The position numbers and the translations under genes are program-made. 64,000 nt of DNA, taken from assembly GCF_963675165.1 (NCBI RefSeq), contig NC_087390.1, positions 4,535,301 through 4,599,300 of the forward strand. Direction: 5' to 3'. This document shows, piece by piece, positions 12,672-58,884 of the stretch. Under the pieces are notes generated by a model. The model had not been told where the DNA came from. It was given only the letters and a program-made list of their open reading frames with translations, and ran no database searches. Source of the DNA: Halichondria panicea (lineage: Eukaryota; Porifera; Demospongiae; Suberitida; Halichondriidae). The stretch's first letter is position 1; the number at the start of each line of letters is the position of its first letter.

Positions 12672-12709
<38 letters not shown>

Positions 12710-18700: not shown

Positions 18701-18886
18701 CAACAGTTATTTTGTTACAAAAACAACTGTAAAGCCACATGCATGTATACTGAAAGTTTATTTTTTCTGTGGTGAAATGAACCTCAGTAAATGTGTGTGT
18801 TGAAATATTGAAAATAGCACCTAACTGTAACCAATCTATCACAGTATCAAGTACATTGTGTGTACTCTTTTTACCTGTACTCCCCT

Positions 18887-18918
<32 letters not shown>

Positions 18919-20068
18919 TACAGGCAGTGACGACATGTAAGTCGAATAGTACAGTGGTACATGCATGTATATAATGATTACATGGCAACCCAACAGGTCA
19001 AGTTGTGTCTCCTTTGTCAGCTGGGGCAGTGGCTGGGATCAGTGCAGCGGTAGTGATCGTTCTCGCCGTGGTGATACTGGGTCTGGGTATTATTGTCATA
19101 GTGTTCATTGCCTACAAGAGACCCACCTCACGAATGGGCCTCTTTTTAATTGAGGTGAGCTCTGTCAGTACATAATATATATACTGTCACAGTGAATCCC
19201 TTTATTACTATTTGAGAATAAGGTTTTGACATGATTTTATGTATATCTTCTAATTTATCAGACACTTTTCTAGGCAAGTTTTGTTGTTCTAATACAGCAG
19301 AAACTCTGGTGTTTAAATATCCGGACAATATCTTGAAGTTGAGATTTTGTAGCCAGCAAGGAGTGCTGCAAGTTAGAGCTTTGAGGATTAGACATGCTAG
19401 TATATACCGTATATGCTTGATCAGGAGCCGCGGCTACTAAATGTTTCATTTTGCTGGAAGAGGAGGCTACAATTCAAGAGGGGCCACTGTTCAAGAGCGG
19501 CGTTTATTAGCTCCAGATAATTTAGTTTGTCATTAAAAGTTGTTTTCACCTGCATAAACTTGAACTCTGTCATGAGAAAGTCTTTGTGAAGCACTAACAA
19601 GCTGCTACGTACATGTAGCTAGCTGCTAGTAATAATTTTTTTGGCTGCCACGTGCAGAAATGCTAGAGTCAAAGTTCACTGAGGCTTATGGGAGGCTACT
19701 ATTTGAGAGCGGCTACTAAATGTTTCATTTTGCTAGCAAGGGAGGCTACTATTTGAGTGCGGCCTTTATACAAGAGCGGCCTCTGATCGAGCATATACGG
19801 TATATACTAATTTGTTGAGGGGCTATTTCAAGCGTTTTGTACACAAACACAAACTGTTTATTTAAGATCTGGGAGCTGAGCTGGTCTTTTTATAGTGCAT
19901 GAGATTTTCGTAATTTGTGGTGATGAATATGCAGTGCTCCAGGTACATAAATATGAATCAACCTTCCCTATACAGCATCGTCCTAAGGCCATGTCTCTGA
20001 ACAAAGGCTCTGCCTCCTACAACGTAGACTCCGGCAATACAATACTCAAGGAAGACCTAAGCACATAG
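10312..20068 (+). CDS. PLXDC: Plexin domain-containing protein (TEM7/PLXDC family)
   Basis: Single-pass cell-surface receptor. Twelve exons: 10312-10369, 10779-10876, 11405-11563, 13555-13750, 13968-14086, 14433-14529, 14727-14819, 15093-15180, 16795-16855, 18924-18936, 18997-19154, 19976-20068. All have GT-AG borders and matching phases, giving 410 residues against about 500 in human PLXDC1. Exon 1 is a signal peptide (LLLGLLAAS). Exons 3-7 follow the family's nidogen-like extracellular domain: DDHVYYTS, FDFPYYGH, TTGGFLYASNYTHAELIA, NIAPLQADFNP, FTVQWNQVH, GPFTFQVSLFQDGSIHF, HPVEVGLSDSF. Exons 8-9 form a PSI domain (SCDECIM, FNCEWCP, RCSDGIDRYTQDWFES). Exon 10 is a 13-nt microexon. Exon 11 gives the transmembrane helix (IVLAVVILGLGIIVIVFIAY), followed by SRMGLFLIE, as in the human tail. 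The family binds PEDF, nidogen and cortactin in vertebrates; function here is inferred. Confidence 0.93.
12128..12330. mobile_element. MITE family C copy
   Basis: Ends TACCGTATGGTGGGTAATTT and AAATTATCCGGTA are inverted repeats, with internal CGTGGTTGAA and GGTTTCAACCAC arms and a C14-rich run at 12299-12314. Same family as 20646-20834, 20929-21115 and the fragment at 24838-24931. Lies in PLXDC intron 3. Confidence 0.7.
12671..12714. repeat. (CA)n microsatellite
   Basis: About 44 bases of almost pure CA in PLXDC intron 3. The AG at 12774-12775 downstream opens a frame that would lead into 12777, but that frame does not fit the exon phases (see rejected). Confidence 0.85.
13033..13188. mobile_element. 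Long fold-back element in PLXDC intron 3
   Basis: Arms of about 57 nt (13033-13090 and 13131-13188) are almost exact reverse complements, from AGAGGTTTTCAGGTAGGTTG inward to ACTCATGCATAAG, around a loop of about 40 nt. The RNA would form a very stable hairpin about 370 nt before the exon at 13555. Confidence 0.8.
15780..15822. repeat. Short palindrome
   Basis: CCAGGAGTGCATGAATATAT is followed by its near-complement TTCATGCATGCACTCCTGG, giving a roughly 43-bp hairpin in PLXDC intron 8. It may be the core of a decayed fold-back element. Confidence 0.6.
16007..16590 (-). repeat. Inverted copy of a roughly 600-bp repeat, left of PLXDC exon 9
   Basis: Reverse complement of the units at 16935-17640 and 17641-18212. 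Shared landmarks: outer end AGAGCACTAAAGTGCAAACC, internal GCAAAGAAGCCTGGAGTC, and inner end CCGTGGCCGCCCACGCG. It has no coding capacity that I recognise. Confidence 0.75.
16935..18212 (+). repeat. Two tandem copies of the same repeat, right of PLXDC exon 9
   Basis: Unit 1 is about 16935-17640 and unit 2 about 17641-18212. Both contain CACCTGG..ATAGC.CTGCGTTTACAG, GTGATCC.GTACCAGG, GACTCCAGGCTTCTTTGCTG, and end with TTTGCACTTTAGTGCTCTAG. With 16007-16590 they place the 61-nt exon 9 (16795-16855) between inverted arms. A fragment also occurs at about 9186-9260. Confidence 0.75.
18888..18917. repeat. (CA)n tract before the PLXDC microexon
   Basis: A CA run ending in ATTACAG at the acceptor of the 13-nt exon 18924-18936. 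It is the clearest case of CA repeat taking the polypyrimidine position. Confidence 0.85.
19405..19802. mobile_element. Inverted-repeat MITE in PLXDC intron 11
   Basis: Ends TACCGTATATGCTTGATCAG and CTGATCGAGCATATACGGTA are inverted repeats; the interior repeats AGGCTACTATTTGAGAGCGG-type phrases. About 398 bp, non-coding. It shares the TACCGTAT terminus with families A, B and C. Confidence 0.8.
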
Positions 20069-20414
20069 CAAAGTATAACTTACCACTGTTACAGTATCGC
20101 TAATAATTATTGGCTGTAAGCATTGTACCATCGATTCGTATGTGCATTTATTTGCATATTTTTATTCAACTTTAAATTATAGAAATTTCTGTACTCATGT
20201 ATATAAGATGTCTGATGATTGAATATAAATATCAGTATCAATTTGCATGCCTATAATTTATTATCAATATTGTAACAATACAAAGTAGTTCAAAACAGAA
20301 CTTCATTTTTATGAGGTTCAAAATGGCCATAATTATGCACTAATGATTGATAATGATTCACTTAGTCAGTGTGTTAACTAGAAGTGCTATAGTGGTATAT
20401 ATGGTGCAATTTGA

Positions 20415-20615
20415 AAGCACATCATCCACCAAATGCTAGATAGTGACTCTCCAGGAGACGCTTTCCCTGGTTCATGGCAGTCCAGCACAGTTGGTCATCT
20501 TTCTCCTCCAGCTCCCAGACGGGACGACGGATCACTGGGACAGGATCAAGGGTGGGGAGGACCAGCATGCGACAAACCTCATCTATGTCCACACCAGAAC
20601 GAAAAAATTGATTGG
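20415..20615 (-). pseudogene. Decayed copy of the last exon of the Reeler-sushi-ITIH gene
   Basis: Read on the minus strand it matches the intact exon 33245-33489 over most of its length: IDEV, RMLVLPTLDPVPV, RRPVW and DDQLCWTAMN are recognisable. Deletions (for example 8 bases within the MEREE codons and a gap in the GYQGKG region) break the frame, and the stop-codon end has diverged. Homology continues into the 3' flank (CACTTAGTCAG here, CACTTATTCAG at 33219). It lies just downstream of, and convergent with, intact PLXDC. This is a duplicate that lost function while the other copy was kept. Sequence similarity is direct; direction of decay is inferred. Confidence 0.85.
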
Positions 20616-20645
20616 CCTAAAAGGTGTTAAGGTAAACTGTTTGTG

Positions 20646-20834
20646 TACGGTATAGCCGGTAATTTCCAGGAATATTTGTAGTTTTCGTGTTGGAGCTAGC
20701 TCTGACCACCAATATTTTACCCAGGCGACTTTGCCTACCTTTACCTGCAGTGCAAGCAGCAACCGCGAACATCCACGAAGTGACTAAATATTGCATGAAT
20801 GTTTACCCCCCGAAAATTATCGGTTATACGGTGT
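20646..20834. mobile_element. MITE family C copy (diverged)
   Basis: TACGGTATAGCCGGTAATTT at the left and AAAATTATCGGTTATACGGT at the right form inverted ends. Internal phrases GCGACTTTGCCTACCTTTACC are shared with 20929-21115. Confidence 0.65.
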
Positions 20835-20928
20835 ATATTGGTGGGTGCATGAAAAAAGAATACCTTAATACGTACCTAACACCCTAATTATAAGGCAACA
20901 AATGAAACCAAAGGTCGAATCTGTTTAA

Positions 20929-21115
20929 TACCGTATAGTGGGTAATTTTCATGATGCAAAATATTCATGGTTTTCGTGGTTGAAGGTCTGACCACAAATT
21001 AAGCGACCTTGCTACCTTTACCTACATACTAGTGCATACTAGCTCCAACCACGAAATGTCTAATATTGCTAAACCACAAATATTTTGTCCCACGAAAATT
21101 ACCCGCTATACGGTA
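20929..21115. mobile_element. MITE family C copy
   Basis: Inverted ends TACCGTATAGTGGGTAATTT and AAATTACCCGCTATACGGTA, with internal GTGGTTGAAGGTCTGACCAC. About 187 bp, non-coding. Confidence 0.8.
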
Positions 21116-21178
21116 ATTGAAGGTTATGTTGATGTCCAGGTGTCGCATCTAATTGGAGGTATATGGTATATACTCATG

Positions 21179-21353
21179 CAGGCTGTGGTGGATCCAGGAG
21201 TATGGAATTGGGGGCTCACCCCCCCCCCCCCTTCCTCCTAAGAACCTTAATCAATTTCAGTGATTCTATCAGCTACTTAGCTAGCTAGCTAGCTATAAGA
21301 AAAAATGTTTTGTGATTTTCCCTTCCCTACCAAAATTCCTGGATCCGCCCCTG
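21179..21353. mobile_element. hAT-like non-autonomous element
   Basis: Ends CAG..GTGGTGGATCCAGGA and TCCTGGATCCGCCCCTG resemble the nested element at 2898-3282 (TGGCAGATCC..GGATCTGCCA). Contains a C14 run and AGCTAGCTAGCT. No transposase. Confidence 0.55.
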
Positions 21354-21704
21354 ATACTTGTACACTTAGTCTCACTTGCCTCGATTTCAGGTTCCAGTGA
21401 ATCGAGGCTATAAGGTGTGTGGCTACATTTATTTAGTCCATTTATGACACGGCAATAAATAATAATTGTCAACGCGGCTATCGCTACTTTTAGGGGTCAG
21501 AAAATTGGCTAAGCTCGCGGGTGTCGCATATTTAGAGGATTGTCTTAATTAGAGGTGTTACAAATCTAAAATTAGCTCTAATATTTTGTAAAGACGCTAT
21601 TACTTTTGGGTACATCTGATTCAGCTTATAGGCTAAGCAATCCATTTGCCTTTAGAAGTGCAATTGTCATAAAAGTGTACGTATAACTATTACTAGATCT
21701 AGAT

Positions 21705-21935
21705 AGAATATTTTGCTGGTGAAAAATAAAATTATTTGCAAATGAGCCAAACTAGCAGAAAAATTGACCCTTTGTGATCTATATAACTACATGTATTGCA
21801 TTCTAGCAAGGATCGTGTGTAATTTACCAGCACTAGTGTAGGATTTTTTTTTCCTCAAAGTGATGACAACGCTTGCAAAGTTTGATGCTTGCTAATGGTA
21901 ATTGTCAAAAGTTTACATTCGGCATAGTTTCGTTT
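21705..21935. mobile_element. MITE family B copy (decayed ends)
   Basis: Interior matches 44202-44402 and the complement of 58388-58608: GAATATTTTGC, GAGCCAAACTAGCAG, AAATTGACCCTTTG, GCAAGGATCGTGTGT, GCAAAGTTTGATGC. The TACCGTATTACTAG terminus is eroded here. Confidence 0.6.
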
Positions 21936-22105
21936 ATTTATGCATTGACCTGAAAGTGTTCACTAACATAACCAGTAACGATGACACGTGCATGTAAACA
22001 AATTAATGGAATTACAAGGACTCTATAGCCACTATTTTCAACATTAGCAAATTTGAGACAGTTTGTGTGCAATACAGTAAAAAAAGTGCTATAGGTAGGG
22101 CAGTC

Positions 22106-23809
22106 ATGGATCAAAATCCAGCATATGAGGTTGCTAAAATTCAGTCAGAGATTACGTATGAAACAGTTGAACCATCCAAAAGTCGAACTAAGAGGGGATC
22201 TCCTAAACCAAGCGCACAACAGAGAAAACCGTCAAAGCACTTGGTCTACTACATTGCAGTGATGGTCATTGCTGTACTAGCTCTAATAATGGCACTAGTC
22301 GCTGTTTCTGTAAGTTTGACAAGAGCCACAAATTCTCAGCAAACTTCTGCAATTCAGTCCCTGTCTGAACAAGAAATTGAGGATTTGAAGGAGCTACTGA
22401 ATCAAAAATATGTAAGCCAATAGTGACGTAATTAATGACCAATTTTGCAGTTTAGCAATTATATACATGCAGATAATTATCGATATAATGCGTAAACCCT
22501 AACCATAACCGTAATACTTTAGCATAATATATAATTATATAGCTACTACACTTTGCCTATAATAATATCAATAAGTAAATGTGATAGCTAATAGACCTTC
22601 TGTTGTTATCCCACAGCAGTGTGTCGTGATTATGATGTAAGACTTGTAAATGGTACAACTGGATTTGAAGGCCGGATTGAAATATGTCTCGCCAATAGGT
22701 GGGGCACTGTGTGTGATGATAGCTGGGATGATAATGATGCGGCTGTTGTCTGCAGACAGTTACAATTTTCGGGTGCTGGTAAGACAACACCAATGCGGCA
22801 ACAAAATTATCAACCATTCCTTCATGCAATTATACTCTCGAGTAAATTACATCACACTAAGCTAGTTATGTCTATATACATGCAGGGGCAGTCGGCTTTT
22901 CAAGAGCCACGTTTGGACAAGGAACAGGACTTATACTTTTAGACAATGTAAAATGCCGTGGGGAGGAAAAAAACTCATAGATTGCTCAAACAATGGACTC
23001 CTTATCCACAATTGTGAACACCACGAAGATGCTGGTGTATTGTGCCTGCCAAAGTCTAAAGGTAAATCACGAACTTATATACATGTATGATACATAATTA
23101 TAGTATTAAGACGTGCATGGAAGACAGAATTTAATCCCATGAATAATAAAGATTCTTCCTGGCAGAGTCAACTTTTCCAGTGCTACTGGAACCAACTTTG
23201 CTAAATTGTTCCCAAGGAAGATGCAGAGATCTTACTTGCCCAAATAATAATTCTTGCATTGTTGATTGTATCCACGAGAACCAAGCACCATGTGGACATT
23301 CTAGCATAATGTGCCCAACTAACCACCAGTGTACTGTGAACTGTGAGGGATCTGACACCTGCAGGCATGCAGATATTACATGTCCACAAGTAGAAAATTG
23401 CAAAATCAATTGTGAAGGAATGAGTGCTTGTTCGTTTGTAGATATTACATGCCCACAATTGGGGAACTGTACAACCAACTGCAAGGACCGTAGCTCATGC
23501 AGTTTTGCAGAAATCTACTGCCCAGACAATCAAGACTGCTTTATCGAATGTGATGGCTATGATGCTTGTGCACACTCGCAAGTTAGATGCCCTGCAAATC
23601 ATAGATGTGAAGTAAATTGTAACGGTCAAAACTCTTGTAGATTCATGAATATTGGATGCTCTGATGCATACGATTGTATCGTCAACTGCAGTGGGAATAA
23701 TGCGTGTAATTTTTTGAGAGTAAGAAATTCTACTATGCTCAACTTAAGCTGCTGCTCACAGGCTACATGCAGTCATGCAAATGTTCAACCATCAGCTGTA
23801 TGCAATTAA
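22106..23809 (+). CDS. Type II membrane protein: SRCR domain plus Cys-rich repeat tail (one frameshift)
   Basis: Exons about 22106-22411, 22617-22778, 22886-23061 and 23166-23809. Exon 1 (102 codons from the first good ATG, next to an NPAY motif) gives a cytoplasmic tail, one transmembrane helix ([20 protein letters not shown]) and a short juxtamembrane helix. Exons 2-3 form one SRCR domain: [67 protein letters not shown]. The last exon encodes about seven 20-residue units of the form CP...C.VNC.G...C..A.IxC, likely a disulfide-rich beta-helix. Two reading problems are seen. The exon 1-2 phase is off by one. In exon 3 an A7 run at 22967-22973 leads to TAG at 22978; one more A would restore the SRCR reading. 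This may be a pseudogene, an assembly error in a homopolymer, or an unusual allele. SRCR proteins usually bind ligands or microbes; the role here is unknown. Confidence 0.8.
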
Positions 23810-23951
23810 CTTCCCCAGTACACAAGTCACACACAAAAGCATGCAGATAGAGTCTACATAGCTAGCTATATCATATAAATGAAACTGAGTGTATAAATAA
23901 TGTGAAAACTTTGAGTAATACTATAGTTCTATAGTTCACATCATATTTGTC

Positions 23952-23957
23952 AATAAA
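23952..23957 (+). promoter_or_regulatory. Polyadenylation signal of the SRCR gene
   Basis: AATAAA 143 bp after the stop codon at 23809, the only match in this short 3' flank before the opposite-strand LRAT gene. Confidence 0.55.
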
Positions 23958-24031
23958 ATGTTGTCTATATAGATGACTTGTCTATAATATTTTATATACT
24001 TATGTCTTCTCTAGTATATACGCATGTATAG

Positions 24032-24556
24032 TCAATGTAATTCAAGATGATTTCGATTTCCACAGACTAAGTAAGCGAATATTCCTCCAAACAAACCTAA
24101 AACACCTCCAGCCACAATTCCAACTGTGCCAAATGCTGCCCCTGTCACAGCCCCACTAGTGAAGCCAATCAATCCTGCCCCATACCCCTCTTTAACCTGT
24201 TGACTCTCTGCTTTCCCAGTTCGAGCCCATGTCACAAAGTGTTCACAATTGTTTCTCAGCATACTATAACCATCGCCTAATCTAGTTCGAGCTCTTGCTA
24301 TAGCTTGTGCTCCACTGAATACACACTCATAATCAAGTACAATAATGTAGCTTGCATCCATTTCAACCAATTTTTCTTCCACTTCCTTTCCACTATTATG
24401 AATGACCATCATTTGAGCATTGTTTTCTATTCTGACTACTAAAGCATGGTGCAAAGCAGTGAGGGTCTTCTTCTTCGAGTTTTGCAGTGTACGGTTGTAT
24501 TTGACATGATCACCGGGCTTTAATTCATGCAGGAAAGATATTTTCCTCTCCTGCAT
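24032..24556 (-). CDS. LRAT-domain protein, paralogue 1
   Basis: Intronless, 174 residues. Matches the LRAT/PLAAT (HRASLS, NlpC/P60-like) thiol acyltransferase fold. KPGDHVKYNR opens the domain, the catalytic His sits in ALHHALVV (about residues 35-42), and the catalytic Cys in NNCEHFVTWART (about 102-113). A Gly/Ala-rich hydrophobic C-terminus (GAVTGAAFGTVGIVAGGVLGLFGGIFAYLV in pieces) could insert in a membrane, as in family members that are tail-anchored. Known members move acyl groups between phospholipids and amines or retinol; the substrate here is unknown. It lies 1.07 kb from a same-strand paralogue, and both share upstream sequence containing GGGACAGTCCC (near 24785 and 26340), so the promoter region was duplicated too. 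Confidence 0.88.
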   Translation of the reverse strand: MQERKISFLHELKPGDHVKYNRTLQNSKKKTLTALHHALVVRIENNAQMMVIHNSGKEVEEKLVEMDASYIIVLDYECVFSGAQAIARARTRLGDGYSMLRNNCEHFVTWARTGKAESQQVKEGYGAGLIGFTSGAVTGAAFGTVGIVAGGVLGLFGGIFAYLVCGNRNHLELH

Positions 24557-24837
24557 TGTATTCTGTGTCCAATATATAGAAATTAAACTATAGATCTAGA
24601 ATATTTACACAGCTATAGACGTCTACAAATTACTCATCTACTTGGCCTGTATAATTATACTTGATAGCTATGATCCTTGATTCATGCCAGTATAGAAGAT
24701 TGAATCTAAAGTGCCAAGTGTTTTTGCTCTAGGTGAAGTAATTTGGGTGTAGTCTACATGTGGGGAAATGTATGGGTTTCCCCAGGGACAGTCCCTTTGT
24801 CTGTAAACAGGAAATTGATAATAACAACTCCTGATAA

Positions 24838-24931
24838 TGAATGTAGAGGGTGATTTTCGTGGGGCAAAATATTCGTGGTTTTCGTGGTTGAATGTCTGAC
24901 CACGAATATTTTACCCACCCGCTATACGGTA
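24838..24931. mobile_element. Fragment of MITE family C
   Basis: GGTGATTTTCGTGGGGCAAAATATTC and TATTTTACCCACCCGCTATACGGTA face each other around GGTTGAATGTCTGACCAC. A short deleted copy upstream of LRAT paralogue 1. Confidence 0.65.
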
Positions 24932-25624
24932 GTTATAGACACTGTTTGGGAGTATAATTTATATCTATATAATTATACCGTCAGAAGTATGAGGAAATGG
25001 AGTGTCTTAATACGTGGATTCTGTATCGTCCTGCTATGCAAACCGCTAAGTGCATGCTACTAACATTATTCATTGTCCTTAATGATATTCATGCACTATT
25101 ATTAGCGCATTATCAGCCGCACTTAGCACATTACAAGCAAGGAAATGTGGTTATTATGATATCGAGGCACTTAAATTGTGGATTGGCCTCTATACAATTC
25201 GTGGGTTAACAGCATTATACTGGTCAGTATAGGCTGCCCCAAACTAGGTTCAATATTAATGTACGTTTATTACGGCCAGATATGATGTTTTGGGTGTGGT
25301 TTGGAAGATAAAATACAAGCAAATCATTATGATTCATTATCCTCAAGACAGAACCGCAAAATTGTATAGTCATTAGATTCTAGGTAGGGTTGTTTTTTAG
25401 CCGCGGCTATTTTCTGAAATGCGGCCACCTTGCTATTCCAGCCAAGCTGCATTGTCCCAAGGGTGGCCGGATTAACGAGAGTCTACTAGCTGTATTAAAT
25501 TACCCATGCAGGCATGTATAGTACAATCCTTTGATGTCTGACCACAATGAGCGTAATTATACATAAAAACAGAATTGTATGAGTGCAGTTATACACAATG
25601 TAGGCAGAGCACTGTACAAGTACT
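24932..25624. other. Non-coding spacer between the LRAT genes
   Basis: No gene seen. It includes AT-rich sequence and a short CGGCCACC-containing repeat phrase near 25420 similar to 19430-19790. Confidence 0.5.
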
Positions 25625-26164
25625 TTAAGATGATTTTGATTTTTTTGGAGTAGTGGAAATGGATACTCCTCCGAACATTCCCAGCGCACCACCAACGATA
25701 CCTCCTGCAACAGTACCCACCACAGGAACAAAAGAGCCAATTGCTGCCCCTGCCACAGCTCCTCCAGCAAGGCCGACCAATCCTGCCCCGGTTCCCTTCT
25801 TAACCTGTTTGCTCTCTCCTTTCCCAGTCCGAGCCCATGTCACGAAGTGCTCACAATTGTCACTAAAAAAATTATAACTATCGCCCAATCGCTTTCGAGC
25901 TCTTTTAATTGCTTCAATTCCACTGTATACACAATCATAGTCTACAACAGTGATGTAGTTTGGATCAATTGTCATTAACTCTTCCTCAACATTTTGCCCG
26001 TCGTTGTGAATGACCATCAATTGAGCGTCATTTTCAACGTTGACTACCAAAGCATGGTGCATAGCAGCAAGGATCTTCTTCTTCTTTTCTTGCAATATAC
26101 AGTCGTATTTGATATGATCACCGGGCTTTAGATCCTGCAACGAAGATATTCTCCTATCTGGCAT
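25625..26164 (-). CDS. LRAT-domain protein, paralogue 2
   Basis: Intronless, 179 residues, clearly paralogous to the gene at 24032. KPGDHIKYDC, catalytic His in MHHALVV, catalytic Cys in DNCEHFVTWARTGKGES, then a longer Gly/Ala-rich hydrophobic stretch (GAGLVGLAGGAVAGAAIGS, GTVAGGIVGGALGMFGG) and a basic, Ser/Lys-rich end. Key residues of both copies are intact, so both may be active acyltransferases. The C-termini differ: paralogue 1 ends CGNRNHLELH, paralogue 2 ends TTPKKSKSS. Confidence 0.88.
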   Translation of the reverse strand: MPDRRISSLQDLKPGDHIKYDCILQEKKKKILAAMHHALVVNVENDAQLMVIHNDGQNVEEELMTIDPNYITVVDYDCVYSGIEAIKRARKRLGDSYNFFSDNCEHFVTWARTGKGESKQVKKGTGAGLVGLAGGAVAGAAIGSFVPVVGTVAGGIVGGALGMFGGVSISTTPKKSKSS

Positions 26165-27009
26165 TGTATTCTGTGTCCGAATGTAGACTAGTAGAATAGA
26201 TTCTCTTAGAGTCTATCTATAAAGAATAGCACAGCTACAATGTATTAAAACTGTACCTAGCTCAGATGCAGTGTAGCGTATATTGTTTACTATTGTTTGG
26301 GATTATGTTATGGTTCTAGGATAACCGGGTTTTCCCCTGGGACAGTCCCATCACGGTGCACCACCACATACCCATGTATAAATGAATTATGCACACAGAC
26401 TAACCACAATACTATTTCCATTAGTTGCTTAGCAACAAATTATAAGGGTCCGATGATGTGTTAAAATGGGGATAATATTATTGGTTTGAGCCAAACTCTT
26501 TGAAACTCCACTCATGCATGCACCGCACACATTTTTTTACAGCACATCATGCACATCTTTAAGACAAAATCACTGAACGTGACAGGTAAAATCGGTGGCC
26601 GAGAAGGTTACTCGCCACCACTACTGCATGCATTTGCCCCCAACAAGTCAACGCGTGGTGTTGGCTATAAAGCTCATAGATTTTCAATCATGAAGTTCAA
26701 AACTGTAGCCATCAACTCGTAGGTGGGAGTGGTCCAGGATTTGCACCATTTTATCAAAGTGCGGTGGTGGTGCATGGTAACCATTTACTGCAACGTGGGT
26801 GCAATTGGCACGCAGTCGAGGTGGTGAGTGACCCTCTCGGCCTCATAGGTATATATATATAATTATGTGTTTATTATAATCACACAGTCTTGTGGACATT
26901 TGAAAAGGTTAGTTTGACCATTGCCAATTTGGGGTATACAATTATTGTGGGTTAAACACCAAGAGAAGCTTTGATTACCCACAATCAGCAGTCCATAAAA
27001 TTGTTTTTT
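26165..27009. other. Non-coding; imperfect inverted repeat at 26592-26847
   Basis: No gene. The left arm GGTGGCCGAGAAGGTTACTC and right arm GAGTGACCCTCTCGGCC enclose about 210 bp and probably mark a small transposon. The LRAT 2 upstream region (26165-26345) lies here. Confidence 0.5.
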
Positions 27010-27485
27010 CACGTCTTCCTTGCTCTGTGGTAAATGGTCCACCGTATCTCGACTTTCCCAGGTCTATTCTTGAAGGTACGTCTTCCTCCCAGTATGTGAG
27101 AGCACTGCGATTGAGGGGGGTCTAGAACTTGGTAAATGGTTGAGGTGTCTTGGGTTCTATTATATTAATCGCGTTCTGGCAAAAAACAAGTTTGTAAAAC
27201 TAAAGTAATACCAATGCATATAACTGGAGCGAGGCTCAACACTTGTCTAATTTGCACACTTTGTTTGTCATTGATGCACTTTCTCTCTACTGTGGTCAAG
27301 ATATCACCTATCCAAAAACCAACATAACATATGCACTGAAAAGGTACCATGCAGGTGTAATAAAACTGGATGTTCTAGAGGATGAGGCATCAGGCATCTG
27401 ATCTAAGCCAAGTTGGAATGAATAGCTAAGCTCCCAATTAGAGATGCCAGGGCAATAAAATTGTAATCAACATCTTTTTGCCGTG
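27010..27485 (-). pseudogene. Inverted relic of a POT transporter gene
   Basis: Read on the minus strand it matches the middle of the transporter at 27810-29369 (about 28120-28640 there): FWIGDILTTVERKCINDKQS, QIRQVLSLAPVICIG, then SRYGGPFTT. Frame breaks occur after the CIG..LV segment, and both ends of the gene are missing. It lies 300 bp upstream of the intact gene in opposite orientation, so it comes from a separate duplication or inversion event. Confidence 0.85.
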
Positions 27486-27809
27486 TCGAAGTTATTTCGT
27501 TGCATGCAGGTCACTTTGAATGCCTCGAAGCGTAGCCCAAGATATGCTATACACAGTTTTAACTTACAGACACTAAAAACCATACTATAGAAGTACAGTG
27601 TGACGTTTCATTTTTGATAAGCAAAATTCAATGTAGGGAATCACCAGTTTCATGTTGCTATGCTAACGCCTGCTAAAGACACTCAATTGTTTACACAACA
27701 AGGAAGCATAGATCATGCCTTGAAGCATCTAACTTACTTCAAAGTCATGCAGTGTCACATTTAATAGATAAAGTAGAATCTACGGCAGTGCTTTCAAGCA
27801 AGATTAATT

Positions 27810-29369
27810 ATGTGTAAGTACAGACCTAGGTGGTTCTATTCCAAGAAAGCACTCCTCATTCTAGTCTGGATTACAGCACTCAGTTTCTCATTCCAACAGT
27901 TTCTAAACAGTAGCAGATTCATAATCTCGAGATCTGAGTTAGGTCACTTGAAGTGGCTAGCTGTCGTTCCTATTGCCACAGCTCTCTTGAGTGCTGTTGT
28001 ATCAGGCTGGCTAGCAGATGCAAAGCTTGGAAATTACAGAGTCGTTAAAGCTGGATTAATTCTGTTGTTCATTGCTTCGGTATTAGCGAGTGTGCTGGTA
28101 CTAAGTGACGAAATACTTCAACGCTACAAAGGGATATTGATTACAATTTTTATTACCCTGGCATCTCTACTCGGAATTGGGAGCTTAGCTTTTGCAACTA
28201 ATTCATTCCAACTTGGCTTAGATCAGATGCCTGATGCGTCATCCTCTAGAATATCTAGTTTTATTACCTGGTACCTTTTCAGTGGATATGCTGGTTTTTG
28301 GATAGGTGATATCTTGACCACAGTAGAGAGAACGTGCATCAATGACAAACAAAGTGTGCAAATTAGACAAGTGTTGAGCCTCGCTCCAGTTATATGCATT
28401 GGTATTGCTTTAGTTACAAACTTTCTTTTTGCCAGAAGGTTGATAATAGAACCCAAGGCACCTCAATCGATCAAAACCATTTACCGAGTTCTTAAGTTTG
28501 CTGCCAAGCATAAAGCTCCCCTCAATCGCAGTGCTCTCACATACTGGGAGGAAGACATACCTTCAAGAATGGATCTGGGAAAGTCGAGATACGGTGGACC
28601 ATTCACTACAGAACAAGTTGAAGACGTGAAGACAATTTTACGACTGCTGATTGTGAGTTTTTCGTTATGGGTAATTGCAGTTTCTCTTGGTGTTCAACCC
28701 ACAAATAATATATCATTTCATGATATTATCCCAAATTGGAAATGGAGTTTTTGTCAAATAAAATTTTTTAACACGTCCACAGGCACTTTGATGTACATAC
28801 TCGTAGGTATATTGATTTATGAACTTGTAATCTTCCCGATATTAAGAAACAAACTACCCAGCATTCTAAAACGAATTGGCATTGCTTCTTTTATGATAAC
28901 ACTTGCAAGTTCACTACTTTTGGCTATGGAGATAGTTTATTCTTTCTATCCTGAAACATACCAAGTACTTCTCATCTTAAGAGTCTTATACCTGGCAGCT
29001 ACAACCTTGTGTATGCAATTTATAGGAACTTCAATGCTGGAATTTGTTTGTGCTCAAGCACCATACAATATGAGAGGACTGTTTGCCGGGTACGTGGCAG
29101 TTTTGGTGGTCTTCATTTTCTCCTTAATTGGATTAGGTCGGGAAATTTATCGTCAAATTTGTGTTAGTGGTAGCAAAGATAACAACTGTGACATAGTATT
29201 TGCTGGTGTGAAGGCAGTGACTACTTTGCTAGTATTCATTCAGTACTGTGTTGTGGCTCACTGGTATAAGAGGAGAGTGAGAGATGAGGATTACGATACA
29301 CAGAGAGTTGTGGAAGAGATCTATGATCGATATCTCACATCAGCCGTCAACCATTATAGGAGACACTAA
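27810..29369 (+). CDS. POT/SLC15-like proton-coupled transporter, copy 1
   Basis: Intronless, 519 residues, about 12 hydrophobic segments. The first cytoplasmic loop reads SGWLADAKLGNYRVVKAGL, the typical D..G.....I pattern of the POT (PTR2) branch of the major facilitator superfamily. The SSRISSFITWYLFSGYAGFW segment corresponds to the family's F.WYY...N.G signature. The ExxER proton-coupling motif expected in helix 1 is not visible, so peptide transport cannot be assumed; this is a divergent POT. A large loop (about residues 225-290) precedes helix 7. The cytoplasmic C-terminus is basic. A close paralogue is at 35280, and an inverted fragment lies at 27010. A family match only; the substrate is unknown. 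Confidence 0.8.
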   Translation: MCKYRPRWFYSKKALLILVWITALSFSFQQFLNSSRFIISRSELGHLKWLAVVPIATALLSAVVSGWLADAKLGNYRVVKAGLILLFIASVLASVLVLSDEILQRYKGILITIFITLASLLGIGSLAFATNSFQLGLDQMPDASSSRISSFITWYLFSGYAGFWIGDILTTVERTCINDKQSVQIRQVLSLAPVICIGIALVTNFLFARRLIIEPKAPQSIKTIYRVLKFAAKHKAPLNRSALTYWEEDIPSRMDLGKSRYGGPFTTEQVEDVKTILRLLIVSFSLWVIAVSLGVQPTNNISFHDIIPNWKWSFCQIKFFNTSTGTLMYILVGILIYELVIFPILRNKLPSILKRIGIASFMITLASSLLLAMEIVYSFYPETYQVLLILRVLYLAATTLCMQFIGTSMLEFVCAQAPYNMRGLFAGYVAVLVVFIFSLIGLGREIYRQICVSGSKDNNCDIVFAGVKAVTTLLVFIQYCVVAHWYKRRVRDEDYDTQRVVEEIYDRYLTSAVNHYRRH

Positions 29370-32300
29370 GAGATTGTGTGCAGAAGTTTTATATACGCAA
29401 CTCGTATACGTAGTTCTATCTAGCACTTAGCACTTAGCACTTATAGACACAGCGGTAGTTGTTAACATGAATGTGAACATCAAAAACCATCCGTGTATGT
29501 AGTATTTAGACCTATAGTAGTTATAGTTCAAATTCGTGAGATTATAATTATGGATACTGCACACATTTTAATAATAAAAAGCACCGCCGGTGCTGGTGCC
29601 TCGGTAGAGGTGCCAAGCTACATAACATAAAGCTACTAATAACTTTTATACACATATTAATTTTGCTGCATGCTGGCTAGAATCACAAGGAAACTCAATG
29701 AGTGAGTAATGATCGACTATAATTGTTGTTAAAAACTATCGGCATAACTCAAAAACCAAGCATTATTAATTACAACCCCACGAATTAAAATCCAATGAAA
29801 CATGCCTTTAGAAACTCTTGATCATTAAGCAGCTGTATCAGTCTACACAGACACACAGACACACACAAACACACTACCGTATACCTCGCTTGCACACGCG
29901 CACCGAGGCATAACTACAATCTTTTACATGCTTGAAAATGATCACACTATAATATATACTGTATATTTCTGCAGCTGCAATGGAACCTCTATAATTATAA
30001 TATTAAATAACCATGCTTAGGGAATAATGTGTTGCACATGTAGGCTTCACGTGAGTGCTTCTATATAGCGAGTCTTTGGGCTGTATACTACTTCTATATA
30101 GGTCTTATAAAATTTTTATAATTATTGCATGTACGCAATAATGCATAATTAAACATTCCTTGCATGTACAAGCTAACACTCGCGTGATCTCGTTCACATC
30201 GACTTGATTTGACTAAAAAAAATTTGCTGACAGTGAATGCAGAGCAAAACGGCATGGTGAGTTTGACCAGACCATTCTTTTAAGAGGCGTGGCTTGCATA
30301 TTACATGGAGGCTACTTACCGTATACTGTCAGACAATGTGATGAAATGCGGTGTCACAGGATTGAGTGACGTGCCTCTCATTTTACGGACAAATAAATGC
30401 CTATATATATAGCGGGCTGTTTTAAGTATACATATAAACTGTGTATAAAACTGTGTATACATTCATGCACACCCAAAACATGAATAAAATGGAATGTTAT
30501 GTGTTTTCTATGCAAGACATGCATGCAGTACCTTTTTATAGTATACAAGGACTTACCTACTATAGCCACTTAATAATGGACCACTCCATTCTTTGCATAT
30601 TATTAATATATACCTCTCCATGCAGTTCTTCAGGGCCTCTGTCTGATAAGAGTTCACTGACTCCACCATGGATAGAAGTATTGGGTATAATATTATCGGT
30701 ACGTATAGAGGATTTTCTCATTTCGATTGTCGATTTGATATCACCGTTTTTTTCGTAGAAGTACAAACAGCACTTGCCATGTCTGTATACTGGTGGAGTT
30801 GGTTTTAGTGCTAAATCTTAATAAAGAAATGTTAGCACATGCACAACTTATACAACAATCATGAATGATACTGTAACAGCTATAAAGGTATACTATATTA
30901 AATGAGTAAACTGATATGATAAGAAGCATGAAGGAATTAAGGAAACTCACCCCAGAGCAATTTATGCTCAGGATATACAGGTTGGCACAAAGTGTTTGAG
31001 CGGCATGCAGGCGAATCAGTCGAGACATGTACTGCATATCTCCTCTGTCGGGGGAGCACAACAAGTCATAACAAACTAGCACATTAATTATGGAAAAATT
31101 CGCTTTGGTCTATATAGTATATATTACTGTACATAATTCATATTACATGCAGCCTTCAGCCTTCAAAGGTTGCAATGCACGTACAGTCTTGTACATTCAG
31201 TAGAAGTGGATACGATTACTCGAGCTTACCATTCCATGTCTAATCCTCACCTATCCCCGGTGGGGGGGGGGGGGGGGGGGGGGGTAGGGCATTAATGTGA
31301 CAAGTGCATAATAAATGGTAAAGAGTTTCAGTCTGTAAAGTTTTCCATGGATGTATCGAGCTATTCTGATTCGATGTCAACGTGAAGTATGAACGTGTGT
31401 TGTAAGTTAAAATGTAGAGTGCATCGATGAGACTTTAGGCTACTCAAGACCGAGTTTCCCGCGACCGTCCTCTTCTATCTGATGATATACAGCTATAGGA
31501 AGGCGTTATACACTCAACAAAGTAACAATAGTATAGCCATTTCTTTTTTATAGTTCTCAGTATTTCTATTGTAACGTGAGTAGGAATAGTGACGTGTCTC
31601 GACTCCAACCGTACATTTATTGTTCAACATCAATAAAATACAAGATTAATAATCATAATAAGCAACTTGAATTCACGAAACACAATAATTGCAATTGTCC
31701 AGGCATTCCGTTTTTTCAGGAATTCGGTGACAATCAATCGTAGGCTTTCAGAAACTCAGTCACGGAAGCATTGTTATGGTAATGAACATTATAAACTTGT
31801 GACATCATTGATCCATTTCATTACAATTCAACATGGTTTTCAGGATGCGGCAGTGTTACAATTATACCTACAGGCTATAGCTTCCACTGTTTAGCTTCCA
31901 GGAATCTAGTAAATACTTTTGCACGCAGAATTATTGGAGTACAAGCATCATATTCAGAGTATAGTGGGAGAAACTAAAGAGTTTCTTCAGCCACAGTGCA
32001 AACTTATAGTGCTAGCAAGAGTATAAGAAGAGAAGAGTGTCGAACTATTGATAGCTCTACATAAAACTGTGAACAAAGTAACAATGCTTTGATAATGCTC
32101 AAACGAATTCCACTGACCTATATAATTTTAGTTCAGATGGAATGACTGTCACCACAACAAACTGATTTTGGCCTCAGTGACACCCCATATATTATCACCT
32201 TGAGAGGCCATGAGCCTATAATAATTGTGCCAACCCTACACCTGTAAATGATTGATTGAACCACTTAAGTGACTCTGCTGTCATACAGCCACTTCTCGTA

Positions 32301-32903
32301 GTCAGCTGCTCCTTCCCTTATTTAGTTTATGGGCTCTTGGTTGATGTCCGTCTATATCTGATCTGAGAACCATAACAACAAGACAGTAATAAGATGCACC
32401 GTCACGAAATCTATAATCGCAGGGGAGGGTGAAGTGTTCGACATGCACCCATTTAGCTCTGTGCTGCTGTGTCCAGTAATTTACAGGGTTTTGTAGACAA
32501 AGGTTGAGGGTTGAACGTTCCTTATATGGAATGCTTCCATATAAGGAACGCTCAACCCTCAGCAAAACCCTGTATGATTATTTAATATTAACATAGGGAC
32601 GTGTGCATGCATGCATTCATATATACACGTCTTAATTGAGGCATACTATATACCCTTTGAATTATCAACCAAAGCTTTAGGGCAATGAAAGCTACAGACT
32701 ATAGCAGACTATTATTTGCATGGTGAAAAAGAGATAATTGTTGCTAAAAGATCCGAAAGGTCAGAGTCCATAATTATTAAATGGCTGTAAGGTCATGAAA
32801 AACATTGTGAGAGGCTCCAATTTTGTTATGTATCTGCATGCATGACTTTTATGTTGAATCAGTGCTGCACTGATAATGCCACGTACCCTCCTCCCCTCTA
32901 CAG
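29370..32903. other. Gene-poor stretch with repeats
   Basis: Holds the dispersed repeat at 29570-29910 (inverted copy of 8030-8570), a 23-base G run at 31262-31284, and a hairpin at about 32487-32574 (GGGTTTTG..GGTTGAGGGTTGAACGTTCC against GGAACGCTCAACCCTC). A short minus-strand open stretch at 32302-32490 (NYWTQQHRAKWVHVEHF) looks somewhat protein-like, but I cannot place it. No supported gene. Confidence 0.45.
31262..31284. repeat. Poly-G tract (23 G)
   Basis: Uninterrupted G run after CCCCGGTG. Long G or C runs also occur at 10738-10757, 12299-12314 and 21220-21233. They are prone to assembly error and to G-quadruplex formation. Confidence 0.9.
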
Positions 32904-32975
32904 CATCATCCCAAAGACATGTCTCTAAATAAGAAGAGAGTATACTCAAAAGGACCTGAGCACAAAGCAAACTAA
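32904..32975 (+). pseudogene. Decayed copy of the last PLXDC exon
   Basis: After CCCTCTACAG the frame reads HHPKDMSLNKK and, after a gap, ends GPEHKAN-stop. Compare the intact exon 19976-20068, which follows CCTATACAG and reads HRPKAMSLNKG and DLST-stop. The deletion of the middle (SASYNVDSGN part) and loss of all upstream PLXDC exons leave it without function. It lies 270 bp upstream of the end of the convergent ITIH-type gene, exactly as the intact PLXDC exon lies upstream of the ITIH relic at 20415. Confidence 0.8.
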
Positions 32976-33244
32976 CTCTACATGAATTCGTATAATAATA
33001 CCACCAAATTATCTTATCAGCTATTATAATGATAAGTATTATATATAGAGCTGGTTTATCTTGCTGACTCGAGAGTTGTCAACTATTATAGAATAATTAT
33101 ATATGTCACAATTGTTACACGTGATTGCAATAAAAATACACAACTGAGTACTAGTTCAATTGAACGTAATAATAGGTTTAATATTTGAGAAACAATGAGG
33201 TTAAAATTAGATACTTGTCACTTATTCAGTTGCTTAAACTAGGG

Positions 33245-36200
33245 CTATGGTGCAAACTTGAACTCACTAGACAGCACATCATCCACCAAATAGTCAAAGT
33301 AGTGACCCTCCAGGAGACCCTTTCCCTGGTAGCCGGGGTTCATGGCGGTCCAGCACAGTTGGTCATCTTTCTCCTCCCGCTCCATGAAGGCCCAGACAGG
33401 ACGACGCATCACTGGGACAGGATCGAGGGTGGGGAGGACCAGCATGCGACGAACCTCGTCTATGTCCACACCAGGACGGAAGAATTGGCCTGGGAGGGTG
33501 CGTGTGCGTGTATAGAAGAATGAGTGGGCGTGTTAGACTGCATGAAACACGAGTGATGATGCAATAACTAATTTGTTGCATGAATGCAGTTCATATAATT
33601 ATACTTCCCTGTGTATGGTTACTCGTAGGAAATTTTATGTGTGTGGCGTTCATCGAGCAACATACATATACAATATTTGCACTGTTAAAGCTGTTTTGTT
33701 TGATTATTGCGGAAAACTGGGATCTAGTTGTCAGTAAAATAGACTAGTAGCCAACTAGCCATGCATGCAGCCGATTTTCTACTCTACTCTTCTTTATTAT
33801 ATACTAATTATCTATACAGTCACTCACATCAACATATTTATATTAAATGCAACGTCATAACTTCTATGCATGCATGTGTACCCTAGGAAGCTGAGGCAAA
33901 TAGTAATTGGAGTGCTGGATCACATGATCTCCAGCCAACCTAAAAGTAGTCAGGTGACTATGTTTAAAATAACTATACCCACAAGAGATCGACATTGGAT
34001 TCAAATGTAGCCAAGACTGCATGGTTTAACAAGTCAAGCTGTATACAAATGGCAAGCTGTATACGAGGCTAGAGATCACGTGACACCAAAATCACGTATT
34101 TTAATGCTGGTGCACTCGGATGCATGGACTCTCAGCCCGGTTACGAAATGCACTCGCCACAACAGATTAAAACACTTAACTTATAACACCTTTGTTATGG
34201 TTTTATTTAGGTTCATTTTACTATTTGCCCCAAACTTACAAGTAACTGTGGAGCTGCATGCAAGGCACAGTGTATAGGTTTTATAAGCGTAATGTAAACA
34301 TTAATTTGTATAGTGGGACATTTTTGATAAGGCAGCATGCAGGGAATTACCAGACAGATTCAGCTTATTATTCTAACACCTGCTAAAGACACTAATTGCT
34401 TACTAATCATGTAGCCAAAACTGCATGGTTTAACAAGTCAAGCTGTATACGAGGCTAGAGATCACATGACACCAAAATCACGTATTTTAATGCTGGTGCA
34501 CTCGGATGCATGGACTCTCAGCCCGGTTACGAAATGCACTCGCCACAACAGATTAAAACACTTAACTTATAACACCTTTGTTATGGTTTTATTTAGGTTC
34601 ATTTTACTATTTGCCCCAAACACTTACAAGTAACTGTGGAGCTGCATGCAAGGCACAGTGTATAGGTTTTATAAGCGTAATGTAAACATTAATTTGTATA
34701 GTGGGACATTTTTGATAAGGCAGCATGCAGGGAATTACCAGACAGATTCAGCTTATTATTCTAACACCTGCTAAAGACACTAATTGCTTACTAATCATGT
34801 AGCCAAAACTGCATGGTTTAACAAGTCAAGCTGTATACAAGGCTAGAGATCACATGACACCAAAATCACGTATTTTAATGCTGGTGCACTCGGATGCATG
34901 GACTCTCAGCCCGGTTACGAAATGCACTCGCCACAACAGATTAAAACACTTAACTTATAACACCTTTGTTATGGTTTTATTTAGGTTCATTTTACTATTT
35001 GCCCCAAACTTACAAGTAACTGTGGAGCTGCATGCAAGGCACAGTGTATAGGTTTTATAAGCGTAATGTAAACATTAGTGGGACATTTTTGATAAGGCAG
35101 CATGCAGGGAATTACCAGACAGTTCTAACACCTGCTAAAGACACATTGCATGGATCATGATTGTTTTACGGCCATCAGATTAGTGTGTTCAGTGTCAAGA
35201 CAATCTTAGATCTATAATTTATAGACAGGGTATAGAATCTACCACAGCACTTGCTATAGCATACCAATAGTAGCAAACAATGTGTAGGTACAGACCTAGG
35301 TGGTTCTATTCCAAGAAAGCACTCCTTATTCTATTCTGGATCACAACAGTCAGTTTCTCAGTCCAACAGCTTTTTAATGGTAGATTAGCAATCTCGAGAT
35401 CTGAGTTAGGTGAGTTCAAGTGGCTAGCTGTCGTTCCTATGGCCACAGCTCTCTTGAGTGCTGTTGTATCAGGCTGGCTAGCAGATGCAAAGATTGGAAA
35501 TTACGGAGTCGTTAAAGCTGGATTAATTCTGTTGTTCATTGCTTCGGTATTAGCGAGTGTGCTGGTACTAAGTGACGAAATAGTTCGACACAATAAATGG
35601 ATATTAATTACAGTTGTTACTGCTCTGGCATCTTTACTCGGAATTGGGAGCTTAGCTTTATTGACTACTTCACTCCAACTTGGCTTAGATCAGATGCCTG
35701 ATGCCTCATCTTCTAGAATATCCAGTTTCATTACTTGGTATGTTTTCAGTGTAAATGTAGGTTTTTGGATAGGGGAGATCTTGACAACACTAGAGAAAAA
35801 ATGCATCAGCAATGATAAACTGAGCACGCAAGTTACTAAAGTGTTGAGCCTTGCTCCAGTTGTGTGCACTGGTATTGCTTTAGCTATAAACTTTCTTTTT
35901 GCTAGAACATGGTTGATAATAGAACCTAGGGCATCGCAATCGATCAAAACCATCTATCAAATTCTCAAATTTGCTGCCAAGCACAAAGCTCCCCTCAATC
36001 GCAGTGCTCTCACATACTGGGAGGAAGATGTACCTTCAAGAATAGACCTGGGAAAGTCGAGATACGGTGGACCATTTACTACAGAGCAAGTTGAAGATGT
36101 AAAAACAATTTTACGACTGTTGTTGCTTAGTTTTTCGTTGTGGATAATCGCAGCTTCTCTTGGTATACAGCCCACAAGATTATCATTCTATGATGATTGG

Positions 36201-39200
36201 CAATTGAATTTGTGTCAAATTAGTATGCTACACACGTCTACAAGCACTTTGGTGTACATATTCGTAGGTATATTGATTTACGAATTTGTAATTTTCCCGA
36301 TATTAAGAAACAAAATACCCAGCATTCTAAAACGAATTGGCATTGCTTTTTTTATGATAACACTTGCAAGTTTACTACTTGTGGCTATGGAATTAGTGCA
36401 TTCGTTCTATCCTGAAACATATCGAGTACTTCTCATCTTAAACGCCATATACTCGGCAGCTACAACATTGTGTACACAAATTATAGCAACTTCAATGCTA
36501 GAGTTTTTTTGTGCTCAAGCACCCTACAACATGAGAGCACTGTTTGCTGGTTATGTGGCATTTTTGCTGGTCGCCATTTTCACATTAAGTGGATTAGGTC
36601 AGGAGATTCATCATCAAATTTGTGTTCGTGGTAGCAAAGATAACAACTGTTACATAGTGTTTGCTGGTGTGAAGACAGTGACTAGTTTGCTGGCATTCAT
36701 TCAGTACTGTGTTGCAGCTCGCTGGTACAAGAGGAGAGTGAGAGATGAGGGTTACGATACACAGAGAGTTGTGGAAGAGGTCTATGATCGAATCCTCACA
36801 TCAGCCGTCAACCATTATAGGAGACACTGAAGATTTTGTGCAACAATTTAGATGAGTTATATGTAACTGATAGTCTTATATACGTATGTATCAGAACTTA
36901 GACACATGGCGGCGATGCAGCGCAGCCGATGTTAACATCACAAACATAAGATGAGTGTACGTGTAACTGTGTGAACAATTATGAGTATTTACTTGATTAA
37001 TTAAACGCCCGGGCATTTATCTGGGGCGTTTAAATGAGATGGGCGCTTATTCGAAATGGGCGTTTATTGCTGTAAACTCTTGCACAGCAGCAGTTATTCA
37101 GCTCTCAGTATCTCTCTCTTTGCCATTATGAATAGTATCTATAGTAGTATTCTATGCTGCCACATGCTTGCAACTGGTTCCACGGGCTACTTCAGCTCCA
37201 CTCACAGCTAGTGCTACGCCCCCTATACATGGGCAATAGGCGTTTATTTTAAAGACAAAGCTTTTACTATGGGCGTTTAATTGAAGTAAATACGGTATAT
37301 GCATGCATTACAAGTATATCCAGTAACAAAATTAACATATCCATGGATAATGCGGGAATTACAACAAAATAATATTACTATTGCACGAAAGTAAGCACAA
37401 TGTAATAGTGGCACGTTCCCATAAATATAATTGAATACCTGATTGACCTATTACTTATAACGTAAACTTTCTAACGCTATTATTATGACGTATAGGGTAC
37501 TTGTATAAAACTCTCACCAATCATTCCATGAGAGTCTTTGGGCTGAGTGGCCACAGAGTCCCAGATCATGTCAAGATGGTTGCTCATATATCGCACAAAA
37601 AAGCTCAAACCAACATCTTTCAGTTCCACCTTCAGACACAAAGTAAAACAATACATAATATTCAATTTAGCCAAAAAGGATAGGGATTAGAAACGAACAT
37701 TTTTACGTGAAACACCCCACGTTAAATAGGGCGTGGCTAAAACTATAGAAGTTGTAGTCAGCATGCTCATTACCTGTCTTGACTACCATACAATGTACTG
37801 TACAGAAATTGATCACCTTAATGTTGCCATTACGCTAATTCTAAATGGTCGACTAAGCAATCCAGCCACTATCACTAAACAAATAAATGCTATACATGTA
37901 AGAATAATAGCCCTTAATATGAAGTCGTGGGAGGTCAAGGCTTGTGATGTGTTTAAAGCAGTTTGAGGGACTATACTGCAAACGTTTATGACAGTACAGC
38001 AGTATGAAGCCATTTTATGTATACTTAGATACATAATAACCAAGCCAAGCAATGTCCTTTGCTGTTTTGACTTCACAGCAGGAAAAGATAAAAGTTGACA
38101 TAGAATTTCAAGCCACAACTCAATAAAAATTCAAAACAGAGTAAGTGGTGTAACTTAATAGAGTACCTCCCAGCCCTGAGTGATTGCTAGTGGATAGAAG
38201 AGCAAAAACAATTACAGAACGATCAACCACGAAAATATTCGCGATCGCTAAATCATAAGCGGAGTGTTGCAACTGTTTACGCAGAGTGGGCCGGTCGTTT
38301 CCAATCCCTGTCCTTTTCTATCTATGGTTTAGCAGAAGAGCAGCTACGTACACTGACCATCTATACATGTATGCACTTGTCAATTGTATTTATTATTTTT
38401 TGTCAATTGTATTTATTTATCTATACATGTATGCACTTGTTATTAGCACTCGAAACCAGGAGCACATGAGGGGATAGAGTGTCTTACACTACGCGGATTT
38501 TGTATCGTCCATCCCCTCATGTGCTCCTGATGAAACTCATTGCACGCCATCAACCCACCTTCACTTCAGGGACCTGTACATCACTATCAGCCTCCGACAC
38601 AGTAAGCTTGCCTCCACTCAGTGAAATCCTTTCCACATTCTTAACGCTCAGTTTCACTTTATCACCGATATAGAGCATTTTTCCTTCCAGTGCAAACCTC
38701 ATCCTGGTAACAGTGGAGTCTTTGTAGGCAGAGTGTTTCACGACCAATCCCAACCCGCCAATCCACGTAACTTCCTCCCTAACTTTGTCTGGTACGAAGA
38801 GAGCATTCATTTGAAGGATACTGTTACTGATGAGGTTAAAGGTGAAGTTGTGTTCACCCTGTACTGAGTAGCAGAGCAACTGACCATTGGGTAACAGGAT
38901 GCTATAGTGAGGATCGTCGCCTAGGCCAATCCTCCCTGGGGGGTGGGTGAAAGTTCATTACTTAATGTGTTTTGGAACAAACTACAAGTGATTGGACTAT
39001 ATAGATTTGTTAGACAAAGCAAATAGTCGACAAAAACCTGCGTGACTCCTAATGCGTATGTATACTTGAGTTAATTAAGCTTTTTAGCGATCTGGTAATC
39101 TACACTCACAGTAATAGAGATAGACGAATACATACTACAAGCTGAGAGTGCACAAACACAGCTTACTATCATTGTCCTCAATGAAGACAGTAGCTCTGTT

Positions 39201-45041: not shown

Positions 45042-45368
45042 GTTAGCAAGCTAGAATTGCTAGTTTTAGGTAGTTCTAAAATTTAGCTATGAGTTCACCG
45101 AGGTATATTCACAGTTAAACACTAAACAGGTTTATAATTAGTTGGCAGGTTGCAGTTTCCTAGTACAAAAACAGCAAATCTTGTTGTCTTAATTAAAACA
45201 GAAGCAACATACTTACCGGTATATGCGTACGTACCATGCACCAGGGCCAGTGCAGTGAGTTCTATCTACCCGCGCGCAGTGCAAGGCTCCGAGTGGTACC
45301 ATAGCCTTGTGTCGAGTCCACGCCGCGCTAGCCTCCATTCCGTTAATTTTCAAAACTTGTGAATCCAA

Positions 45369-58608: not shown

Positions 58609-58884
58609 TGGCTAACCTTTCTGCCAAATTACAGAGCAACAATTGCTTCAATTTCAAAATTCTAAAATGCTTACAACGGTGGTGTTTACTTTCATCAGCT
58701 CTGAAAGTATAATGGAATAAATAATGTTGAAAGAAAAACACACCTATAGTTATTGATACATTTTTGGCGATAGATATATAGTTATATAGCCAGGGGAAAA
58801 CAAGTATTCAGAACATTTATAACAGTTTGATACTCACAGCAAAAACTAGGAGATAGCTCTCTTACAGGTATAGCACTTACAATT

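Follow-up and report, generated by a model that had tools for sequence, protein, structure and literature searches.

Cases in which a tandem duplication breaks within genes are on record (PMC5460883), and for transporters of the POT family a published survey has used the E..ER motif as a sequence filter (PMC10215352). Here we describe a duplicated locus in a stretch of 64,000 nucleotides, henceforth the window, from the sponge Halichondria panicea (RefSeq assembly GCF_963675165.1, contig NC_087390.1, positions 4,535,301 to 4,599,300 of the forward strand); all coordinates below refer to the window. The last exon of a PLXDC-like gene (plus strand), the last exon of an ITIH-type gene (minus strand) and a transporter gene (plus strand) occur here twice. 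We consider it very probable that one direct tandem duplication, reaching from the last intron of the PLXDC-like gene to the last intron of the minus-strand gene, yields every piece of this arrangement. Our literature searches, in which the species name was not among the terms, did not show the locus.

A sensitive blastn comparison of positions 18500-31500 with 31500-38500 gave three collinear blocks, all on the same strand, which confirm the repeated order and orientation that a preliminary description of this DNA had reported.

19921-20004 and 32852-32932, same strand: block 1, PLXDC exon region (68%, E 1.4e-5)
20358-20610 and 33218-33487, same strand: block 2, ITIH-C exon region (78%, E 7e-56)
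27609-29487 and 35084-36945, same strand: block 3, POT region (82%, E 0)

The two units differ in length, with 9.6 kb on the left and 4.1 kb on the right. The spacing from the PLXDC to the ITIH-C exon is nearly equal in the two units (~350 and ~290 bp). From the ITIH-C exon to the POT block it is ~7.0 kb on the left versus ~1.6 kb on the right; the left distance is larger because other genes and repeats sit there.

The exons and noncoding stretches were also scored against control windows drawn from both strands of the whole 64 kb, excluding the loci under comparison. The observed score was reached by no control window for the PLXDC exon (0/2128), the POT 5' flank (0/1176) and the POT 3' flank (0/1778), by 3 of 996 for the noncoding spacer between the two last exons and by 1 of 3288 for the noncoding stretch past the ITIH-C stop. 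The similarity between the units extends beyond coding DNA, though both spacer matches are weak. Collinear similarity outside the POT genes, the absence of which the preliminary description had named as evidence against a duplication, is therefore present, both as exon blocks and as noncoding matches. One of its two examples of aligned flanks, the CACTTA.TCAG segment, is indeed noncoding; the other, CACATCATCCACCAAAT, lies inside the right ITIH-C coding exon, where it is the antisense of LVDDV.

Separate events, namely retrocopied POT genes beside unrelated copies of the exons, would fit the fact that the POT genes are single-exon and that their similarity reaches only ~200 bp upstream of the start codon and 118 bp downstream of the stop codon, as it might in mRNA copies; they would also fit the unequal distance between the ITIH-C exon and the POT block. 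We regard such a history as very unlikely, since the exon copies share the order and orientation of the POT copies, keep similar spacing, and are separated by a spacer that still matches weakly. In other words, the similarity is neither limited to the mRNA nor devoid of collinear neighbours, as it would be in a pair of retrogenes.

The left PLXDC-like gene extends from at least ~11.4 kb to 20.07 kb. PLXDC proteins carry a nidogen-like region, a PSI domain and a transmembrane helix; we use the name for what we take to be a likeness to this family, beside a PSI match below the cut-off (E 0.047, exon chain joined by eye). The chain gave two weak matches among PDB sequences (E 0.5 and 0.6). The exons that bear on the duplication are the following; here and in the next list the exons named in the preliminary description are where it placed them, with corrected bounds for the left PLXDC exon and both ITIH-C exons.

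18997-19154, plus strand: PLXDC-like exon with the transmembrane helix; donor in phase 0, frame and splice signals judged by eye; outside the duplicated unit, upstream of it
19943-20068, plus strand: PLXDC-like last exon, left, intact (VHKYESTF...LKEDLST and stop); its phase-0 acceptor CTCCAG/GTACAT fits the phase-0 donor
~32852-32968, plus strand: PLXDC-like last exon, right, relic; acceptor gone, ~28 bases missing, stop lost

The left last exon is spliceable, with frame and splice signals intact, and the right copy is a relic, as had been claimed. A second copy of the transmembrane exon was not found near the right unit (query 19000-20700).

For the minus-strand gene the situation is the reverse.

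33245-33489, minus strand: ITIH-C-type last exon, right; in frame with the upstream exons, joined translation open to the stop
20417-20616, minus strand: ITIH-C-type last exon, left, relic (recognisable part); 4-base insertion at the acceptor, 2-base difference near the end
37518-37629, minus strand: penultimate exon (...HGMIG/GTGAGA) with usual splice signals; outer limit for the right breakpoint
38559-38935, minus strand: exon with the DPH start of the ITI_HC_C-like domain, from the joined translation and Pfam
39167-39398, minus strand: Calx-beta exon, Pfam E 1.1e-5, just under the cut-off; appears in frame into the ITI_HC_C-like part (join by eye)

The join of 38935-38559, 37629-37518 and 33489-33245 is open through to one stop. 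If the left copy is put in as the last exon, the frame shifts, because of the 4-base insertion beside the acceptor, and a stop follows after ~12 codons; the exon is thus intact on the right and broken on the left, in agreement with the preliminary description. The end of the left exon is also altered, and two glycines are replaced in a motif that we presume to be conserved. A first gene model, in which 38555 (donor GTTGAT) was spliced straight to the last exon, was dropped when the exon 37629-37518 with its canonical donor was found. The ITIH-C part of that model had no matches in a viral contig collection, and the ITIH-C parts had none in a PDB sequence search.

The left ITIH-C exon is nevertheless well kept. 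Over the part that is in frame, leaving aside the altered end and two gaps of 9 bases, 13 of 171 aligned bases differ and 158 are kept; the ratio of nonsynonymous to synonymous divergence (Ka/Ks) is 0.23, with 6 amino-acid differences versus 9.1 under random placement (P 0.047). Together with a kept acceptor AG, 64 open codons and the correct phase if spliced directly from the donor at 38559, this could mean that the minus-strand gene uses it as an alternative last exon and that it is no relic. We think this extremely unlikely, since from the phase-1 donor of 37629-37518 the exon runs into the frame shift and early stop just described, and splicing in phase would leave out the penultimate exon.

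The right ITIH-C exon appears to end a gene for a mosaic extracellular protein (33245-45050, minus strand) with a Reeler domain, a sushi array, a Calx-beta domain and an ITI_HC_C-like end; that these parts form one gene is suggested by their strand and order. The gene seems to begin near 45050 with the Reeler domain (E 6e-11 for two pieces joined by eye; the first open reading frame (ORF) alone gave no match). It has several sushi exons, of which one was tested (E 9e-11) and the others are known from repeats and ORF translations; with their introns they form a tandem array at 39776-42620 (minus strand), the units being ~88-98% alike. The domain scan, which covered chosen exons, gave Reeler, Sushi and Calx-beta. 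ITIH proteins have VIT and VWA domains upstream. The ITIH label of the preliminary description therefore holds for the C-terminal likeness and fails for the upstream parts: the Pfam scan of the join of three exons lists ITI_HC_C (PF06668) alone, with the match in the expected place, but its score (E 0.12, 12.5 bits) is below the curated cut-off of 27 bits, and the domains upstream are Reeler, sushi and Calx-beta. An alignment to a putative ITIH sequence served as a lead only.

The third duplicated component is the transporter.

27810-29369, plus strand: POT-A, single-exon SLC15A4-like ORF of 519 amino acids
35280-36830, plus strand: POT-B, single-exon SLC15A4-like ORF of 516 amino acids, nested in the last intron of the minus-strand gene
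26920-27500, minus strand: third POT fragment, broken and inverted, a mosaic between POT-A and POT-B
34005-35149, plus strand: a ~388-bp unit in three repeats directly upstream of POT-B, 96-98% alike over most of their length

Both ORFs are complete and open, the five gaps in their coding alignment are all multiples of three, and POT-B is 79% identical to POT-A (Ks 0.225, Ka 0.111, Ka/Ks 0.49 over 514 codons). Since the joined exons 37629-37518 and 33489-33245 read in frame, POT-B lies inside the last intron on the opposite strand. Part of the ~388-bp repeat unit matches a single segment upstream of POT-A (27609-27694).

The proposed history is as follows. The ancestor would have had a PLXDC-like gene (plus strand) tail to tail with the Reeler/sushi/Calx-beta/ITIH-C gene (minus strand), and one intronless SLC15A4-like transporter nested in the last intron of the latter. 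With the left break in the last PLXDC intron and the right break between the transporter and the exon 37518-37629, a direct tandem duplication would have yielded a second set of the two last exons and the transporter. On the left, PLXDC would keep its upstream exons and the ITIH-C exon would be orphaned; on the right, the reverse would hold. The orphan 3' tails, presumably promoterless, would decay and both transporters would be kept, so that POT-A would have left the host intron, POT-B would have stayed inside, and the net gain would be one transporter gene.

The observed arrangement is what such an event calls for. The flank retained by each unit is the one on its outer side, the edge genes are truncated accordingly, and a second copy of the outer exons was not found in the window, which supports the earlier proposal of one tandem duplication with breakpoints inside both genes. 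The 'reciprocal loss' that went with that proposal needs rewording: there is indeed one whole copy and one broken tail per gene, but two later losses are unneeded as the truncation is automatic. The losses look reciprocal because the duplicated unit holds only the 3' ends of convergent genes; for the same reason both genes survive, and the junction is not expected to create a chimera. The well-kept left ITIH-C exon beside older-looking spacers would also be accounted for if the duplication had been larger, taking in the whole of the PLXDC and ITIH-C genes, with both long functional until separate recent deletions reduced one copy of each to a single exon. This is improbable, given that the neighbouring exons leave no remains in the window (the PLXDC transmembrane exon, the ITIH-C exon at 38555-38935 and the stretch 36945-38550, which holds the penultimate exon, were not found there in a second copy) and that two independent losses would be required, each ending short of the last exon.

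Several observations weigh against the single duplication as the whole history. Two further regions are listed here.

29488-32851, no strand assigned: region in which the duplication junction has to lie, with a dispersed repeat at 29571-29916 and a palindrome at 32505-32561
20629-21115, no strand assigned: repeat adjoining the left ITIH-C exon; matches 24844-24917, 12128-12292 and within itself

In the first of these, convincing similarity to either expected flank was not found; matches to the PLXDC body (11380-17000) are short, weak and scattered there. Going into the intron from either last exon, the similarity is gone after ~20 bases, so that the junction and the breakpoints are not visible. 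When the scores were set against those of sequences simulated at a divergence (K) of 0.22 and 0.1 indels per site, the 5th percentile was missed by the inter-exon spacer and by the intron side of each last exon, and narrowly by the POT 3' flank; the POT 5' flank just cleared it. Right-unit counterparts of an SRCR gene and two LRAT-type genes of the left unit were not seen. Moreover, the conservation of the left ITIH-C exon is, at a borderline level, too good for a freely decaying orphan.

In favour of the single duplication, the divergences of the copied parts are of one order: Ks is 0.225 for the POT genes and 0.20 for the ITIH-C exon (57 codons), and the Jukes-Cantor distance of the PLXDC exon is 0.28 (94 sites). 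As several spacers are more diverged than the synonymous sites, later events probably overlie the duplication. The repeats at 19398-19809, 20629-21115 and 29571-29916 lie at most ~110 bases from three edges of similarity, and the second would explain the vanished intron similarity beside the left ITIH-C exon.

Other signs point to exchange between the copies. The third-position differences of the POT genes are clustered (dispersion P 0.012) and are absent from one run of 50 codons (P 0.009). Over its whole aligned stretch the inverted fragment agrees with POT-A at 53 sites and with POT-B at 21. Within 28108-28655 its informative sites fall into two groups: as far as 28556, 46 of 54 are POT-A-like, and beyond that position 1 of 9 is; an equally strong split occurred in 1 of 5000 permutations. 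The patchiness of the POT pair, the mosaic fragment and the kept exon point to gene conversion among the copies or, for the exon, to long use before its death. Such signs change the history and leave the main event standing. A stronger version, which we consider possible but doubtful, is that gene conversion limited to coding blocks has kept the POT copies, the inverted fragment and the orphan ITIH-C exon alike since the duplication while the spacers turned over, so that the orphan exon was preserved by overwriting from the working copy and not by use.

A collinear extension past the POT genes (29907-30568 and 37355-38042) was considered and rejected: it is gap-ridden, 10 of 205 other placements score higher (some being true repeats, some overlapping windows), and the insertion of the repeat at 29571-29916 ought to have displaced the diagonal.

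We also note the neighbouring genes. An SRCR domain, a hydrophobic stretch and a row of cysteine-rich repeats without a Pfam match are found in ORFs at 22007-23806 (plus strand), perhaps one gene, and a tandem pair of LRAT-domain genes, ~75% alike, lies at 24032-24595 and 25625-26212 (both minus strand). These genes sit between the left ITIH-C exon and POT-A; they may have been in the ancestral intron or may have arrived later. Farther to the right there are a DDE_Tnp_1_7 transposase in two overlapping reading frames (46451-48126, plus strand), a 1246-amino-acid ORF with a Chlam_PMP-type repeat (58831-62568, plus strand, E 2.4e-6) and a second ORF with a weak match (63005-64000, plus strand, E 0.03).

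The geometry of the event is what makes the locus instructive: when convergent genes have their 3' ends duplicated, both remain whole and an extra copy is gained of what lies between them, and here a nested gene would have been moved out of its host intron by duplication. Annotators are cautioned against treating the two relic exons as pseudogenes of independent origin. The event is nonetheless of a well-known kind with an ordinary mechanism, and no general view is changed by it.

As regards the known systems, the closest solved relative of the transporters is human SLC15A4, to which POT-A is matched by phmmer (E 3e-12, best stretch residues 120-366). They differ from the SLC15/POT family in that POT-A has no Pfam match and POT-B only a chance one. 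In POT transporters the ExxER motif is placed in transmembrane helix 1 (TM1), and no E..ER motif occurs anywhere in POT-A or POT-B; we therefore call them SLC15A4-like and not canonical proton-coupled POT transporters. NCBIfam gave no families for three proteins. Pattern searches for relatives gave 4 matches to POT-B in a viral contig collection and 66 matches to the POT pair (two patterns) in a genome contig collection, none of them confirmed. Structure prediction for the pair was not used (mean predicted local distance difference test score (pLDDT) 36.5).

The duplications described in PMC5460883 resemble the present one in being direct tandem copies with breakpoints inside genes, which leave gene fragments beside whole-gene copies. 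That paper stresses chimeric genes and recruited noncoding sequence, whereas here the edge genes are convergent and only 3' tails are orphaned; and the present case is old rather than a segregating variant.

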